This document shows, in pieces, positions 21,420 through 59,094 of a stretch of DNA of 64,000 nt. Source of the DNA: a virus; IMG/VR virus record IMGVR_UViG_3300008516_000114, positions 25,684-89,683 of that record. One strand, 5' to 3'. How positions within the stretch are numbered: the stretch's first letter is position 1; the number at the start of each line of letters is the position of its first letter. A model generated the notes under the pieces. That model made no database searches and was not told the DNA's origin. It saw only the letters and a list, made by a program, of their open reading frames with translations. The translations under genes were made by a program, and so were the position numbers.

Positions 21420-21423
21420 TAAT

Positions 21424-42549: not shown

Positions 42550-43494
42550 TTAATGTTCTAAATAACACTTTTGATATTTTTCTTGAATTTTATCTTCATC
42601 CGGGTGATCATAATATACTTGTAATGTATAAGGGTGAGCACCAACTAACTGAGAAACTTCTTTAATAGAAAATCTTCTACCGCCTCTTTCATCGAGTAAT
42701 TGCATAAGACTTGAAATTTTATAATGTCTGAATATATGCGGATACAGGGGAAAGGAAATTCCTGCTTGCTCTCCTAATTTTTTTATGTATCCAAGAGCAC
42801 CTCTTTTTGTTATATTGAAAATCTTTTCAGGTGGCCTTGAATATACATATATATAATAAGCCTTTAGTTGCTGCAAGGAATTTGCTTTAGATTCACGTAA
42901 CGGAAATGCCCGAAACCCATTATTATCCTGTTCTGCAGTCTTTTTGCCATGAATAAGGATATATTTCTCGTGAATATCGGTATATTTCAGGCTTATTAAT
43001 TCGGATATTCTTGCCCCTGTTTCAATAAGGAATTCAATAAGTGTATGCCGTTCTAATTGAATATATAATTTATTTAGATTTGTAGGTAGTGGCTCATTTT
43101 CAATATAATCTTTTATAATCCGGATATGTTTATCTTTAAGATAGTATTTTATTTGATTCTTTTCTTCCTTGGTTTTCCGCAAATTACCCTTAAAGATCAC
43201 TGGTTCGGAGATCAATTTTTTATCTTCGGCAAAATTATAAAAATGCTTTATACCGCTTTTAATATATCCCTGTCGTGTATTTTTCTTAACGTTTTTATCA
43301 TAGAGATATCTAAAGAAATTTTGAATATCTAAGGATTTTGCATTTAAGAGAACGTCTTCTTTTAGTTTACGTCTGCTGCCATTAAGATATTTAATGAATT
43401 TTTTCACCCCGATAACATACCTCACAGCAGATGATGGAGCTACACCCAAATCATAAAGTAAGTAATTTTCATAGCGTTTAATTAATGTGAGCAT
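42550..43494 (-). CDS. Tyrosine recombinase
   Basis: A 314-aa protein, normal length for XerC/D-type enzymes. N-terminal SAM-like core-binding domain (residues 1-100), then the catalytic domain with Arg in TGARISEL, HIFRHYKI (H-x-x-R), a late His in LVGAHPYT, and nucleophile Tyr in TLQVYYDHP. All expected catalytic residues can be placed. Likely integrates, excises or resolves the phage genome. A second, unrelated recombinase lies at 50985-52466. Confidence 0.92.
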   Translation of the reverse strand: MLTLIKRYENYLLYDLGVAPSSAVRYVIGVKKFIKYLNGSRRKLKEDVLLNAKSLDIQNFFRYLYDKNVKKNTRQGYIKSGIKHFYNFAEDKKLISEPVIFKGNLRKTKEEKNQIKYYLKDKHIRIIKDYIENEPLPTNLNKLYIQLERHTLIEFLIETGARISELISLKYTDIHEKYILIHGKKTAEQDNNGFRAFPLRESKANSLQQLKAYYIYVYSRPPEKIFNITKRGALGYIKKLGEQAGISFPLYPHIFRHYKISSLMQLLDERGGRRFSIKEVSQLVGAHPYTLQVYYDHPDEDKIQEKYQKCYLEH

Positions 43495-44040: not shown

Positions 44041-44176
44041 TTAGTTCCTTTTCTATTTTGCTCTTATCTTTAGGCGTTAACCTTTTAACAAATTCCTCTG
44101 CTGTAATTCCGCTATTTCTAATAAGCCAACTTACTTTTTCAAGACATTCTTCAATAACATTTATATTTTCTTCCAT
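44024..44176 (-). CDS. Small helical protein, 50 aa
   Basis: GGAGA upstream and 16-17-nt overlaps with both neighbours support it. Acidic helix then basic helix (TPKDKSKIEKEL). It is shorter than most annotation cut-offs. Confidence 0.65.
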   Translation of the reverse strand: MEENINVIEECLEKVSWLIRNSGITAEEFVKRLTPKDKSKIEKELNAKNT

Positions 44177-44469
44177 TTTTCTCCAGTATATATATTATGT
44201 AACTCAAAAATCTTATCGATATTCTCGTTAAGAGAATTCTTGGCAGTTTGTACAGATTCAAATTCACCTTTTAAAATAATCCATTTCCATTTACAATTAG
44301 GATTACCGTCTTCATTAATATCTTTTTTTATAACTTTTAATCTGATTTTATGCGGATTCTTATCTTCTATACATCCACATTCAAATTTATTAAATTTTAT
44401 ATCATGGTGGTCAGTAAAAAATGATCTATATCTTCCTGTTGCTTTTGTTGTTTTAAATGTAAATTTCAT
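44161..44469 (-). CDS. Unknown basic protein
   Basis: A 102-aa protein with alternating beta segments (KFTFKTTKATGRYRSFF, KIRLKVIKKDI), possibly a small ferredoxin-like fold. Starts with an ATGA overlap to the 24-aa gene upstream and overlaps the next gene by 16 nt. Confidence 0.65.
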   Translation of the reverse strand: MKFTFKTTKATGRYRSFFTDHHDIKFNKFECGCIEDKNPHKIRLKVIKKDINEDGNPNCKWKWIILKGEFESVQTAKNSLNENIDKIFELHNIYTGEKWKKI

Positions 44470-44540
44470 ATCAATTTTTTTCTAAAATCACTGTGAGGCT
44501 TGGCAGGATTTTTACCTACTGGCTTTTTTGCTTGGGACAT
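44466..44540 (-). CDS. Peptide of 24 aa inside tRNA-like element B
   Basis: GAGGAG at good distance before ATG 44540; ends with an ATGA overlap on the next gene. Basic peptide containing VGKNPAKPHSDFRKKL. Its codons cover the T-arm and acceptor arm of element B, so the same bases would serve two roles. Confidence 0.5.
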   Translation of the reverse strand: MSQAKKPVGKNPAKPHSDFRKKLI

Positions 44541-44619
44541 CTCAATCTCCTCATAACCCACAGTCAACCTATAAACTGCATGCAATGCGTTTCGCAGAAC
44601 ACCACAAGCCTCACAATGT
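44491..44619 (-). ncRNA. tRNA-like element B
   Basis: Minus strand. Arms TGTGAGGCTTG (44615-44605) and CAAGCCTCACA (44502-44492) pair perfectly over 11 bp. The 3' arm follows GTAGG-TAAAAAT-CCTGC, a T-arm with a degraded loop. The 5' 18 nt and 3' 20 nt are nearly identical to element A at 54736-54817; the centre is unrelated and holds a start codon with SD. It could be a decayed tRNA, a regulatory RNA, or a small mobile repeat with these arms as terminal inverted repeats. Confidence 0.6.
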
Positions 44620-44776: not shown

Positions 44777-45844
44777 TCAATTTTCATCTTCCGACAATCT
44801 TACTGGCATCAAAAGATTTATGCTTTTAATCTCATTGTCAGATGTCTCCTCAAAGACTTGTGCCGATATTGGATTACTGAATTTCCATACAACGATATCC
44901 GAGTTCATGCTTTTCAATAGTTCCGTAAAATACTTAATATTCATACCCACTGGTTTTCTTGAACTATCGCCTTGTTTTGAAATCTCTGAATTCCAGCTTA
45001 TATCGGTTTCAGGATCATAAGTTGATACTTTGATCCTACCATGAGATATATTAAATATTCCCTTCTCTGTAACATCAGGAAACAAAGCAGCATCTTTAAG
45101 TAATTTCAACATTTCCTTTCTATTAAACTGAACTTTTTTCTCTGTATGTTCAGGTATTACAGATTTGAAATCAACGGAAGGCTCATCAATTAAGCGAATA
45201 TATAATTGGATATTATTTTTCAGGCTGAATCTAAGATAATGTTTATTATCTCCGCTTACTTTAACAATCTCATCAGCAAATTGTTTGATAATCCAAATTG
45301 ATTTTTGATGTATAATGCCAGAAAATTCCTTGTCAACTTCACAACTACCCAAATCCGGATAATATTTCATCATTGAGCCATTAACCGCACAGGATTCTAA
45401 TTGACTGTTCTGAGAAACAAATACACCTGTTAATGCAGGTCGCAGTTCATTATTTGAACAGAAGGGCAATTGGTTATTTAGATATTCAAAAACTTTTTTA
45501 TTCCAATTACCGACAAAATTAAACCTGGTTTTGGGTAATGAGGGAAAGTCTTCGACATCTCTATTTGTGAATTTCAATTGCCGGCTATCGTAATTGATAG
45601 TGGTTTTATCTTTTCTGGTTTTAATCTCAAATGTCTTAGGTTTGGATCTGAGGACATTCTTGAGTATTGTAATTGGTATAATACAATTCAGATTAGTATC
45701 AATTGGTATAACGGCATAGTTCTCAATATCAGTGACAATCATTTTGCCGTTTCTCAAACATATATTCTTGAGAATTAGCAGTGGGTTCTTTTTATTAATT
45801 ACCTTCTCTGCTATTGGCAAAAATTGGTTAAGTTGTTCTAACAT
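44777..45844 (-). CDS. dnaN: DnaN-like sliding clamp
   Basis: A 355-aa protein, the length of a bacterial beta clamp. Markers are NNELRPALTGVF in the middle domain (normally the R-x2-L-x-GV strand) and the terminus INLLMPVRL, corresponding to the conserved MPVR/MPMR end that binds partners. It would tether a polymerase during phage replication. No polymerase gene is in the window. AGGAGA precedes the start. Confidence 0.88.
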   Translation of the reverse strand: MLEQLNQFLPIAEKVINKKNPLLILKNICLRNGKMIVTDIENYAVIPIDTNLNCIIPITILKNVLRSKPKTFEIKTRKDKTTINYDSRQLKFTNRDVEDFPSLPKTRFNFVGNWNKKVFEYLNNQLPFCSNNELRPALTGVFVSQNSQLESCAVNGSMMKYYPDLGSCEVDKEFSGIIHQKSIWIIKQFADEIVKVSGDNKHYLRFSLKNNIQLYIRLIDEPSVDFKSVIPEHTEKKVQFNRKEMLKLLKDAALFPDVTEKGIFNISHGRIKVSTYDPETDISWNSEISKQGDSSRKPVGMNIKYFTELLKSMNSDIVVWKFSNPISAQVFEETSDNEIKSINLLMPVRLSEDEN

Positions 45845-50776: not shown

Positions 50777-50847
50777 GTCTTCATAATTTAATGGCAGAAT
50801 ACCAGATTCCCAATCTGGAGATGGGGGTTCGATTCCCATTGAGGACT
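50777..50847 (+). tRNA. tRNA-Gly (CCC)
   Basis: Acceptor GTCTTCA/TGAGGAC pairs over 7 bp; D-stem ATTT/GAAT. The anticodon arm CCAGA-TTCCCAA-TCTGG has CCC at 50809-50811. T-loop TTCGATT. With a standard 5-bp T-stem there is one G-A mismatch, whereas ATGGG/CCCAT pairs fully but enlarges the loop. Discriminator T, no CCA. Gly-CCC is unusual for an AT-rich genome. It lies alone in non-coding DNA near the serine recombinase. Confidence 0.85.
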
Positions 50848-50984
50848 CGGTTTGTATTGCATAGAATTAATATCAGTTGGCAAAGCAGTTGATATAATTT
50901 CCACGCAGATATTGTTAATCATTGACTATATAGTATCAATAAACAATATTAAAAATATAGTTATCAACAATTATTGTATAGAAA

Positions 50985-52466
50985 TTACTTAATGTCTATT
51001 TTGATTGGTGATTTCTCAAAGATATAATAGATTAAAATATAATCATTAAAATAATCAATATGCTTAATCAGACAATGAACAAGATTAAACTTCTTTTGAA
51101 ATTCATAATCATCAAATTGTTGTATTCTATTCTTAATAACATCAAAACTAATTAGGGGAGAATCTAATCTTTCCTTTTCAACAATAATATCAACTTCCAT
51201 TCTATTAATTAATTCAGATAACTTAATCAAACGATCCTTAATAGAATTCAGATTAATCCCATTCTCTATAGCGCTAATTAAATTAGACTGTTTTTCTTTG
51301 AATCCTGATAACTGCTGATAAAGAACTGATAAATTATCGTTTATCCTTTCACTATTGGAATATTTATTATAAGCCTTCTCAAGTTTAGTGATATCGAAAT
51401 AATTAGATTTCAGATCGGCAAGGATATTAGTTTCTATTATATCATAGGATATACCCTTGAATTCTGAACATATCTTATTCTTCCTACCACGGCAGAATAT
51501 ACCTAAATAATCGTGTTTGCGTTCAAATGATGAATTTTTATAATGATATATTCCTTTAGGTGAAATATTAAGATATATTTTATGATGGCAGAAGCCACAG
51601 AAAAGGATTGACATAAAAAGGTTTTCGTATTTCGGTTTTGAATTATTATGATAGACATAAATTTTCTTTTGTTTTGAGGCTTTAAGATTTTTCAAATAGA
51701 TATTATATGGAATAATAGGCTGAATATTCTTTGCTTGAATTATTACTTTTTGCGAATTAAACATTTTGCCAGAATAGATAAGGCGCTGTCTAAGACGTAT
51801 TAACGAACCTATAAGATACCTTTTACCTGTTTTAGACAAAATCTTCTTTTCGACGAGATGAAGGAATAAGCGATAATTAGTCAAGTGATATTGATTGAGT
51901 ATATATTTAACTATGGGTGCACGTATAGGGTCTTTGACAAGTTTCTTCTGATTTCTGTCCCATAAGAAACCGTCAGGTGGATTAGGGGCAGCGGATAGAT
52001 ATATGCCAGAATCTCTGGCAATTTTAAAGGAGCGTAGTTGCTCCTTTTTGCGTTTCTTTTTCTCATCTTCAGCACCATAAAATTTAACTATGGATAATAT
52101 AAGATCGCCTAAATGAAGTGGATTAACTCTCTCGTCAGGGGTGGCAATACCAATATTATGCTCACGCAGGATTGAGAGAAGCCATAGACCAAGATTAACT
52201 GAACGCAAAGAGCGATCAATCTCCCTCACTATCATCCAGCCGTTATCATAATATCCAGTTCCGACTTTTTCAATAGCATTCTGGAATATATATCTTACAT
52301 TTTGTTTTGAAGTTGAAGCAATGCCTTCGTCGAAAATATCCGATTTGTTAAAGTGCCAGTCTTGAGATTTGGCAAAAGCAGGTAGGTCTCTACGCTGTGC
52401 TTCAAGCGAATATCCCACCGATTGCGATTTTGTAGACACACGGATTATAATGAAGCAATTAGTCAT
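50985..52466 (-). CDS. Large serine recombinase
   Basis: A 493-aa protein. Catalytic domain with nucleophile Ser in IIIRVSTKSQ, and VREIDRSLRS matching the D-R-x-x-R helix. Then a recombinase domain (PPDGFLWDRNQKKLVKDPIR) and a zinc ribbon with CGFCHHKI and CRGRKNKIC. A coiled coil follows (about residues 375-425). This is the build of phage serine integrases. The non-coding DNA downstream of it is a natural place for an attachment site. Overlaps the HTH gene by 8 nt. Confidence 0.92.
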   Translation of the reverse strand: MTNCFIIIRVSTKSQSVGYSLEAQRRDLPAFAKSQDWHFNKSDIFDEGIASTSKQNVRYIFQNAIEKVGTGYYDNGWMIVREIDRSLRSVNLGLWLLSILREHNIGIATPDERVNPLHLGDLILSIVKFYGAEDEKKKRKKEQLRSFKIARDSGIYLSAAPNPPDGFLWDRNQKKLVKDPIRAPIVKYILNQYHLTNYRLFLHLVEKKILSKTGKRYLIGSLIRLRQRLIYSGKMFNSQKVIIQAKNIQPIIPYNIYLKNLKASKQKKIYVYHNNSKPKYENLFMSILFCGFCHHKIYLNISPKGIYHYKNSSFERKHDYLGIFCRGRKNKICSEFKGISYDIIETNILADLKSNYFDITKLEKAYNKYSNSERINDNLSVLYQQLSGFKEKQSNLISAIENGINLNSIKDRLIKLSELINRMEVDIIVEKERLDSPLISFDVIKNRIQQFDDYEFQKKFNLVHCLIKHIDYFNDYILIYYIFEKSPIKIDIK

Positions 52467-54672: not shown

Positions 54673-54732
54673 ATGCTTCATAGAGCCATAATATATTTGA
54701 TTAACGAGGATTTAAAAAAGCAGGATTTTTAA
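54673..54732 (+). CDS. Peptide of 19 aa next to tRNA-like element A
   Basis: GGAGG 8 nt before the ATG; peptide LHRAIIYLINEDLKKQDF. Ends 3 nt before the arm of element A. Confidence 0.4.
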   Translation: MLHRAIIYLINEDLKKQDF

Positions 54733-54735
54733 CAT

Positions 54736-54817
54736 TGTGAGGCTTGTGGCTTTCTATTATAATGGCTAAAAGATGCGATTGCAGGTTATGCAGGTTCAAA
54801 TCCTGTCAAGCCTCACA
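54736..54817 (+). ncRNA. tRNA-like element A
   Basis: Arms TGTGAGGCTTG (54736-54746) and CAAGCCTCACA (54807-54817) pair fully over 11 bp; the last 7 bp form a tRNA-like acceptor stem. The T-arm GCAGG-TTCAAAT-CCTGT (54790-54806) is canonical. The spacing of 43 nt between acceptor and T-stem suits a normal tRNA, and a D-stem CTTT/AAAG with GG in its loop can be drawn, but no anticodon stem of 5 bp forms in any register. It shares arms with element B (44491-44619). Possible degenerate tRNA. Confidence 0.65.
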
Positions 54818-54842: not shown

Positions 54843-55142
54843 ATGTTAAGCAAAAAAATGATTAGGCATGAAATGATTGGAGAAATCGAAAGGCTAGAGG
54901 CCCAAATTCAAAAATTAAACGACCAAGTATTTGGTAGGTTTGATGTTCCGGCTTTTTTTAAAGATTATCAAACGAAAAAACAAAAGGGATCAAGAATAGA
55001 CCAATCTATTGAAGCAATTAATAAGAATACTAAAAAATTCAATGTCCTAATGGATAAACTTAATTATGAGTTTATTGAAGAGAATGATTGCCCTGTTTTT
55101 AAAGTAAAAGTAAAACCTTCAACAAAAGACAAGGAGAAATAA
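54843..55142 (+). CDS. Unknown coiled-coil protein
   Basis: A 99-aa protein with AAAGGAG. N-terminal coiled coil (MIGEIERLEAQIQKLNDQVF), basic Lys-rich middle. One nt before the next gene, so the two probably act together. Not recognised. Confidence 0.65.
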   Translation: MLSKKMIRHEMIGEIERLEAQIQKLNDQVFGRFDVPAFFKDYQTKKQKGSRIDQSIEAINKNTKKFNVLMDKLNYEFIEENDCPVFKVKVKPSTKDKEK

Positions 55143-57081: not shown

Positions 57082-57472
57082 AAAAAAGTCCTGCAATTTA
57101 GAATTAGCAATTAAACTTAAAGATTTGGGATTTAAACAAGATGCTCAATTCGGATGGTATGATGCTCAAATTGCGAAAGTCATAAAATCTAAAAAAGAAG
57201 TATCAAGGAGAGAATTTGAAAGCGGTCAAGTAGAATATGTTTTGATAGCAGATGCTCCTACTGTAGCCGAACTCGGAGAGAGATTACCCAAAGATTTTTG
57301 CTCAATGAAGACAGCTTTTAAAGATAAAAAAAGAAGATGGATGTGTGGATCACCTTTATTTTATGCTGATGATCATTATGGTGTAATAAATTTTGTAAAA
57401 TATCAGTATGCAAAAACCGAAGCAGATGCAAGGGCAAAGGTTATTATTGCTGATTTGGAAGATAAGAAATGA
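57071..57472 (+). CDS. Conserved phage protein, unknown
   Basis: A 133-aa protein. AAGGATAAAG before ATG 57071. YVLIADAPTVAELGERLP is a segment seen in small phage proteins associated with replication genes. ATGA overlap with the methyltransferase. Confidence 0.7.
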   Translation: MENEKKSCNLELAIKLKDLGFKQDAQFGWYDAQIAKVIKSKKEVSRREFESGQVEYVLIADAPTVAELGERLPKDFCSMKTAFKDKKRRWMCGSPLFYADDHYGVINFVKYQYAKTEADARAKVIIADLEDKK

Positions 57473-59094
57473 CTGAGCCTTATTATCAGCACAAAGGGAT
57501 AACGATATATAATGGTGATTGCTTGGAGATATTACCAGAATTGACTGATAATAGTATTGATATGCTACTGACCGATCCACCTTATGGCTATTCATTTATG
57601 GGTAAAGATTGGGACAAAGCAGTATCAGGTGTAGAAATATGGAAGGAATGTTTAAGAGTATTAAAGCCAGGTGCTTTTTGTTTTGTAATGTCTGCACCGA
57701 GACAAGATGTTTTAAGCAGAATAATTGTCAATTTAGGAGATGCAGGATTCAGAACTGATTTTACAAGTATCTATTGGGCTTATGCCAGCGGATTTCCAAA
57801 GGCGATGTCAATTTCAAAAGCTGTTGACAAGAGGGGTGGCAAATATCTCGGATGGTTTATTGATTATATCCTTGAGATTGCAAAACAAAAAGGAATTAGC
57901 AGAAAAGAGTTAACAAATTTATTCCTAAGTAAAAATGGTAAACCTACTGGATGGCTTTGGAATAAACAATATACTCAAGCAATAACGGTTGAGCAATATA
58001 ATAAGATTAAAAATTATCTTGACTTACCATTTGAGAATATAGAAGAAGCCGAAAGAGAGATTATTGGTAGAAAACAAACTGGTGATCCCGTTAATTGGTT
58101 CGCTAATCAAGATACTAAACCCAGAGATGGCTTAGTAGATATAACTGCTTCAGCTACCCCCCAAGCCAAAGCACTTGATGGTTCGTATGCTGGATTTCAA
58201 CCCAAGCCTGCAGTGGAAGTTATAATTGTCTGTATAAAGCCCTTATCTGAAAAGACTTATGTTGACCAAGCTTTGAAGAATAGAAAGGGAATAACATGGC
58301 TGGACGATTGTATAATACCGTATGAAAGTAAGGTGGATAAAGAAACAGCAAGACCTGGTGGTAAAATAACGACAGCAATGGGAAGTTTTGTTAGTAGAAG
58401 TGGCGGGAAAATAGTAGAAAGAGAAAATAGAACTTATCAACCAAAAGGTCGCTTCCCAGCCAATCTATTAGTAAGTGATGATGTTCTAAATGATGGAACG
58501 AATCACATTTCTGGTAAAATGGATTGTGTTGCAAAAAACGATTTTGATAAAAGTATATGCTATGGAAAATATAATCCACATCCTGCAGTAACTCAAAAAT
58601 CAGAAGGCTCATTTAGTAGATTTTTTGACCTTGATGCTTGGGATAAAAGAGAAAGAGATAACTTTCCATTTATAATTGTACCAAAAGCATCCAAGAGTGA
58701 GAAGAATAGGGGGCTGATTGGTGAGGTTAATCCGATACCGTATTCGGAGTATCGAGAAAACTTTGATACCACAAAAAGTTATGTTTCGGAATATCCAGAT
58801 GGTAAACCAAGACCAATGAACAAAAGTATAAACAATCATCCAACTTGTAAGCCTATTAAACTTATGCGTTATTTAATTACACTCGCAAGCCGAAAGGGTG
58901 ATTTAATCCTTGACCCATTTATGGGGAGTGGAACGACAGGTATTGCTTGTAAATCAACAAATAGAAAATTCATCGGAATAGAAATAGAAAACTCAGAGGA
59001 AAATAAATATTGCGAAATGGCAAAATTAAGAATAATTGCTATGCAAAGTTTATCACAAGAAGAATTATTTAAAATAAAAAGGAGTATTTTATGA
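57469..59094 (+). CDS. Beta-class DNA methyltransferase (N6-adenine or N4-cytosine)
   Basis: A 541-aa enzyme. Catalytic motif LLTDPPYGYSF (DPPY, residues about 36-39) comes first and the SAM-binding FxGxG motif (LDPFMGSGTTGIA, near 478) last, the beta-class order. An insert with a small HTH-like region (AKQKGISRKELTNLFLS, about residues 140-185) and a long target recognition region lie between. It may protect phage DNA or regulate it. No restriction endonuclease is next to it. Confidence 0.93.
   Translation: MTEPYYQHKGITIYNGDCLEILPELTDNSIDMLLTDPPYGYSFMGKDWDKAVSGVEIWKECLRVLKPGAFCFVMSAPRQDVLSRIIVNLGDAGFRTDFTSIYWAYASGFPKAMSISKAVDKRGGKYLGWFIDYILEIAKQKGISRKELTNLFLSKNGKPTGWLWNKQYTQAITVEQYNKIKNYLDLPFENIEEAEREIIGRKQTGDPVNWFANQDTKPRDGLVDITASATPQAKALDGSYAGFQPKPAVEVIIVCIKPLSEKTYVDQALKNRKGITWLDDCIIPYESKVDKETARPGGKITTAMGSFVSRSGGKIVERENRTYQPKGRFPANLLVSDDVLNDGTNHISGKMDCVAKNDFDKSICYGKYNPHPAVTQKSEGSFSRFFDLDAWDKRERDNFPFIIVPKASKSEKNRGLIGEVNPIPYSEYRENFDTTKSYVSEYPDGKPRPMNKSINNHPTCKPIKLMRYLITLASRKGDLILDPFMGSGTTGIACKSTNRKFIGIEIENSEENKYCEMAKLRIIAMQSLSQEELFKIKRSIL

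Follow-up and report, generated by a model that had tools for sequence, protein, structure and literature searches.

Two small elements in the genome of a virus, A and B, carry an acceptor-like helix joined to a T-arm and have no anticodon arm. Our favored reading is that they are tRNA-like RNAs, more specifically tRNA mimics placed in the spacers of polycistronic phage mRNA and recognized by tRNA-processing enzymes. We give this reading a probability of about 0.42; transcription, cleavage, the enzyme involved, and any effect on expression are the parts that we infer. Enzyme-recruiting RNA elements are suggested by three observations taken together: the intergenic position of the elements in the sense direction, pairing that is kept through sequence change, and an encoded ACCA end in a comparable element of another viral contig (L225).

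The phage record

The window, by which we mean the whole 64,000-nt stretch of DNA that was analyzed, is part of an 89.7-kb virus record (IMGVR_UViG_3300008516_000114) with tail genes and a DnaB helicase. It also contains the following genes:

42550-43494 (-): tyrosine integrase
44777-45844: sliding clamp
50985-52466 (-): large serine integrase

Given this combination of tail genes, integrases, clamp, and DnaB helicase, the record is probably a temperate tailed phage. Several other features of the record were observed along the way. Integrases of two types, tyrosine and large serine, occur together in this one phage record, and a tRNA-Gly(CCC) gene without an encoded CCA (50777-50848, +) adjoins the serine integrase gene and is possibly att-related. 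A number of glycosyltransferase genes are clustered from L084 15692 onward to window position 2153. The N- and C-terminal halves of a UvrD-type helicase are found in separate ORFs about 740 nt apart (L084 1283-2155 and 2898-3710), a split that may reflect an insertion, an intron, or a frameshift. The DNA methyltransferase at 57469-59094 (+) likely contains a large internal insertion, since its PHROG match covers 527 residues and only 235 profile positions.

Anatomy and setting of elements A and B

Both elements are present where the first-pass annotation had placed them. Their bounds, as used here, are those of the 11-nt arms:

54730..54732 (+): TAA stop of the small ORF (putative gene) upstream of element A
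54736-54817 (+): element A, whole
54736..54746 (+): 5' acceptor-like arm of A, TGTGAGGCTTG, with two more pairs from 54734
54747..54789 (+): variable center of A, 43 nt, without an anticodon arm
54790..54806 (+): T-arm of A, GCAGG TTCAAAT CCTGT, with a canonical T-loop
54807..54817 (+): 3' acceptor-like arm of A, CAAGCCTCACA, then GTAA (no CCA)
54843..55142 (+): gene downstream of element A, 99 aa
44492-44615 (-): element B, whole
44605..44615 (-): 5' acceptor-like arm of B, TGTGAGGCTTG
44520..44604 (-): variable center of B, 85 nt, with predicted hairpins
44503..44519 (-): T-arm of B, GTAGG TAAAAAT CCTGC, with the loop non-canonical and the stem kept
44492..44502 (-): 3' acceptor-like arm of B, CAAGCCTCACA, then GTGA (no CCA)
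44466-44540 (-): 24-codon ORF, MSQAKKPVGKNPAKPHSDFRKKLI, whose ATG (44538-44540) and SD lie inside the center of B
44161..44469 (-): gene downstream of element B, 102 aa

The common 5' and 3' ends that had been reported for the two elements are represented by a 16-mer, ATTGTGAGGCTTGTGG, and a 21-mer, AATCCTGNCAAGCCTCACAGT, each of which has exactly two occurrences in the window, one in A and one in B. Searches of shuffled sequence with the 3' motif, allowing up to three mismatches, gave 0.00 matches. In an ungapped comparison, A and B are 89% alike over 28 nt on the 5' side and 83% alike over 40 nt on the 3' side. A BLAST search of the whole 89.7-kb record with A recovered B in two segments, at E 1.3e-6 and 2.9e-5, and gave no further copy. 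Shared coding was rejected as the source of the common 3' end, as the reading frames differ between A and B. The centers had been described as unrelated, which is nearly right, but a 34-nt part of them aligns at about 47% with two gaps. Differences between A and B affect 0 of 26 arm positions versus about 18 of 34 in this alignable part of the center (Fisher p 2.5e-6).

The pairing proposed earlier was borne out in both elements. The arms form a perfect 11-bp helix, which extends to 13 bp with one T.G (G-U) and one A-T pair, and the T-arm (a 5-pair stem and a 7-nt loop) directly adjoins the 3' arm. Neither center contains an anticodon arm, in agreement with the earlier remark that a usable anticodon stem is lacking. 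The T-stems of A and B differ in two pairs, C-G to T.G and G.T to G-C, both of which keep the pairing, while the arms, being identical in sequence, show no compensatory change between A and B. In the predicted ensembles of the two elements, arm pairs had probabilities of 0.95-1.0 and T-stem pairs 0.85-0.99. Both elements folded far better than shuffled sequences: none of 200 shuffles equaled them, with z-scores of -3.65 (A) and -4.05 (B). When 2.1 Mb of sequence was scanned, no non-tRNA stretch other than A and B combined at least nine consecutive Watson-Crick arm pairs with a T-arm.

Elements A and B are both intercistronic and sense to co-directional neighbors: each starts 3 nt past a stop codon, and an ATG follows its end after 22-25 nt. 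ORF-free placements of a random 82- or 124-nt stretch account for only 4-15% of the window, according to the cut-off chosen for ORFs. The 5' arm of A is separated by 3 nt from the TAA of the small ORF, and the ATG at 54843 lies 25 nt past its 3' arm, with AAGGAG in the gap. Element B, which is positioned after the sliding clamp gene, begins 3 nt past the TGA of a four-codon frame (a putative gene), and 22 nt separate its end from the 102-aa gene, which starts with the ATG at 44469. No family match was found for the 99-aa or the 102-aa gene. The 24-codon ORF of B has a strong SD and ends in a TGA that overlaps the start codon (ATG) of the 102-aa gene, a gene without a good SD of its own. We also observed a promoter-like TTGTGA-17-TATAAT sequence within A (54735-54763, +), with its TATAAT-like box in the center at 54758-54763; both are absent from B.

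Likeness to tRNA and other known RNA classes

Element A scored 24.9 bits (E 0.0021) against the Rfam tRNA model (RF00005), which has a gathering threshold of 29, and element B had no match in Rfam. Neither element was called a tRNA by ARAGORN, whose only calls were tRNA-Met at 21423 and tRNA-Gly at 50777. The tmRNA models and ARAGORN gave no tmRNA match at A or B, and the Rfam C4 antisense RNA model gave none up to E 10. We file A and B as tRNA-like RNAs that are not members of tRNA, tmRNA, or C4 RNA.

Element A resembles tRNA in that its canonical T-arm directly adjoins the acceptor-like 3' arm and in that its 5' arm is followed by T-G-G, matching tRNA positions 8-10. A T-arm with a 5-bp stem and a TTCRANY loop is present in A and in the L225 element; in B, the stem is kept and the loop is TAAAAAT, in which the usual U55 and C56 are missing. 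Compared with tRNA, A and B differ in having an acceptor-type helix of 11 bp instead of 7 bp and in having no anticodon arm and no CCA. The RCCA 3' end is helpful to RNase P and not obligatory; it is absent from A and B, where the corresponding letters are GTAA and GTGA, and present in L225 as ACCA.

Several RNAs other than tRNA are known substrates of RNase P, including phage M3 RNA, phage C4 antisense RNA, T4 gene 32 mRNA, and polycistronic operon mRNAs (PMC11143913). Like the C4 antisense RNA of P1/P7 and the M3 RNA of phi80, A and B would be small non-tRNA phage RNAs on which a tRNA-processing enzyme acts. Unlike C4 antisense RNA, they have no C4 family match and no evident antisense target in the phage genome, where no complementarity to the center of A or B stood out in a search made without a shuffled control. 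The t-elements of plant mitochondrial transcripts are tRNA-like and are cut by tRNA-processing enzymes (PMC4919922). Together with mascRNA/menRNA, they resemble A and B in being tRNA-like folds between or after messages, and mascRNA/menRNA are likewise cut by enzymes of tRNA processing; they differ in being eukaryotic or organellar, and the processing of A and B is putative. We know of no sequence kinship between these RNAs and A or B. RNase III sites between T7 early genes are likewise hairpins in the intercistronic spacers of a phage polycistronic mRNA and are not known to carry a T-arm, an ACCA end, or acceptor-like arms in common.

A comparable element in other viral contigs

Relatives were sought with an 18-letter query made up of A's T-loop, T-stem, and inner arm. 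The search returned seven stretches, and a comparable element was found in L224 and L225 only, two viral contigs that are identical over 10 kb. In L225, the element consists of TGTGGGGCAGG, 96 nt, GCAGG-TTCAAAT-CCTGC, and CAAGCCCCACA, followed by ACCA. It lies between two small genes, with the TAG of its upstream neighbor one base before the arm, and it was not called a tRNA. Its folding compared with shuffles gave a z of -4.31. The inner arm includes two mismatched (unpaired) positions, and at arm pair 5 a GC replaces the AU of A and B, a compensatory change. Two genes downstream of the element, we observed an HNH endonuclease-like gene (L225 6275-6517), identified by eye.

Since the query consisted of A's own letters, the likeness of those letters in L225 is no evidence, and a putative kinship of this element to A rests on a short stretch retrieved with them. 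Three features do not depend on the query: the T-stem's 5' half, which pairs, the eight outermost arm pairs, and the ACCA. The compensatory arm change, the ACCA, and the intergenic position favor an RNA element over a DNA repeat. In the three-sequence alignment of A, B, and L225, covariation was not significant relative to shuffle controls, and no homologous proteins were detected between this phage and the compared stretches of L224/L225.

Other searches were directed at the arms, the neighboring genes, and the predicted structure. Exact arms at A-like spacing had no match in 2.9 million viral contigs and one match in 84,980 genomes (L204), which we regard as a coincidence because it belongs to a 45-copy dispersed repeat in which the usual arms differ and has no T-arm beside the arm. 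The genome in question, the Bacteroidetes MAG DOLZORAL124_46_22 (L204 5917-5983, genome G001), carries about 45 dispersed inverted-repeat elements of 107-111 nt, several of them in pairs about 50 nt apart. Arm patterns revealed no second element in the viral contigs, in the case of the 5'-arm pattern among the matches listed. Protein searches using the genes beside A and B and the tape-measure gene found no relatives of this phage in viral contigs. Model R1 found nothing over 80 viral loci, and covariance model R2 (A, B, and L225) found no further such element among the matches checked from 99 viral records; those besides L224/L225 were ordinary tRNAs. Over the same records, R2 gave one weak match (L235, E 0.097) without a tRNA call. 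The 3' motif had no match in a 297-genome Bacteroidota sample.

Proposed processing of the elements

The first-pass annotation had offered a phage tRNA-like regulatory RNA family, decayed tRNAs, or a small mobile repeat. Among these three options, a tRNA-like RNA is the best supported, but the word family overreaches for three distinct elements and one compensatory change. We propose that in the transcribed spacer the acceptor-like helix would stack on the T-arm, without a working anticodon domain. Acceptor helix and T-arm make up the half of tRNA that is read by RNase P and 3' processing enzymes, and the host RNase P and/or tRNA 3'-end enzyme would most likely bind and cut at this helix. The cut would part the upstream message from the downstream gene and fix the 5' end of the latter, and a small stable RNA could possibly be released.

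The main difficulty for the tRNA-mimic reading is geometry, as the elements would present 16 stacked base pairs (11 + 5) compared with the 12 of tRNA. Bacterial RNase P measures the length of the stacked helix, and the pairing in A and B extends past the expected RNase P cut. A wider claim, that A, B, and the L224/L225 element form an undescribed phage family of anticodon-less tRNA mimics whose acceptor helix has 11 bp, acting as processing punctuation between the genes of polycistronic mRNA, is doubtful at present. Such a role could be likened to mitochondrial tRNA punctuation and t-elements.

Alternative explanations

The strongest rival is a plain cis-acting structure in the mRNA that undergoes no tRNA-type processing, either a leader hairpin affecting translation or stability of the next gene or an RNase III-type site like those between T7 early genes, in which the likeness to a T-arm would be inherited or incidental. 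We consider this somewhat unlikely. The elements are intercistronic, sense, and just upstream of start codons, as expected of such structures; a long perfect helix suits a double-strand-specific nuclease, and translation of the 24-codon ORF from inside B would open the helix. However, a hairpin of this kind does not predict the canonical T-arm abutting the helix in A or the encoded ACCA in L225, and the gene that follows A has its SD beyond the helix.

Descent from tRNA without retained function, with A and B as two copies of a single phage tRNA gene that have decayed or been rearranged, is a poorer fit and distinctly unlikely, because no arm position has changed while about half of the alignable 34-nt center differs. 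Element A does retain a T-arm and the T-G-G that follows its 5' arm, its tRNA score comes near the threshold, and the phage has two tRNAs recognized by ARAGORN. Decay would nonetheless have left the arms identical and perfectly paired as the centers diverged, and the 11-bp acceptor helix, an odd geometry common to A, B, and L225, is foreign to tRNA. Recent copying, gene conversion, or a binder that recognizes this particular sequence could also account for identical arms in A and B, and if the ends were recently copied or converted, the argument against decay would lose force.

The suggestion of a small mobile repeat (MITE-like), with the arms as terminal inverted repeats around unrelated cargo, found little to sustain it, and we regard it as improbable. 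Identical inverted ends, different centers, and opposite orientations 10 kb apart are what such a repeat could produce, and the genome has two integrase-type recombinases. Yet the flanks of A and B share at most 1 nt, leaving no longer target duplication; the record holds two copies only; the A-sized arm pattern was found in none of the other viral contigs searched; and the likeness covers end-specific sequence and the T-arm, beyond what terminal repeats would include.

A DNA site, at which a phage regulator or recombinase would bind inverted sequences or which would serve in integration or inversion, is the least probable of all: the 11-mer occurs four times as inverted pairs, the arm-to-arm spacings of 71 nt (A) and 113 nt (B) differ by 42 nt, or four helical turns, and the tyrosine integrase lies about 1 kb from B with an HTH regulator further on, but the 124-nt spacing in L225 is out of phase with both, and the T-arm, sense orientation, and ACCA would be left unexplained.

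Implications

tRNAs are common in phages, and a few RNAs of phages are known to make use of tRNA-processing enzymes. If A and B are tRNA mimics as proposed, this phage would cut its own messages by means of the host's tRNA-maturation machinery, and tRNA annotators would gain a class that is now missed.
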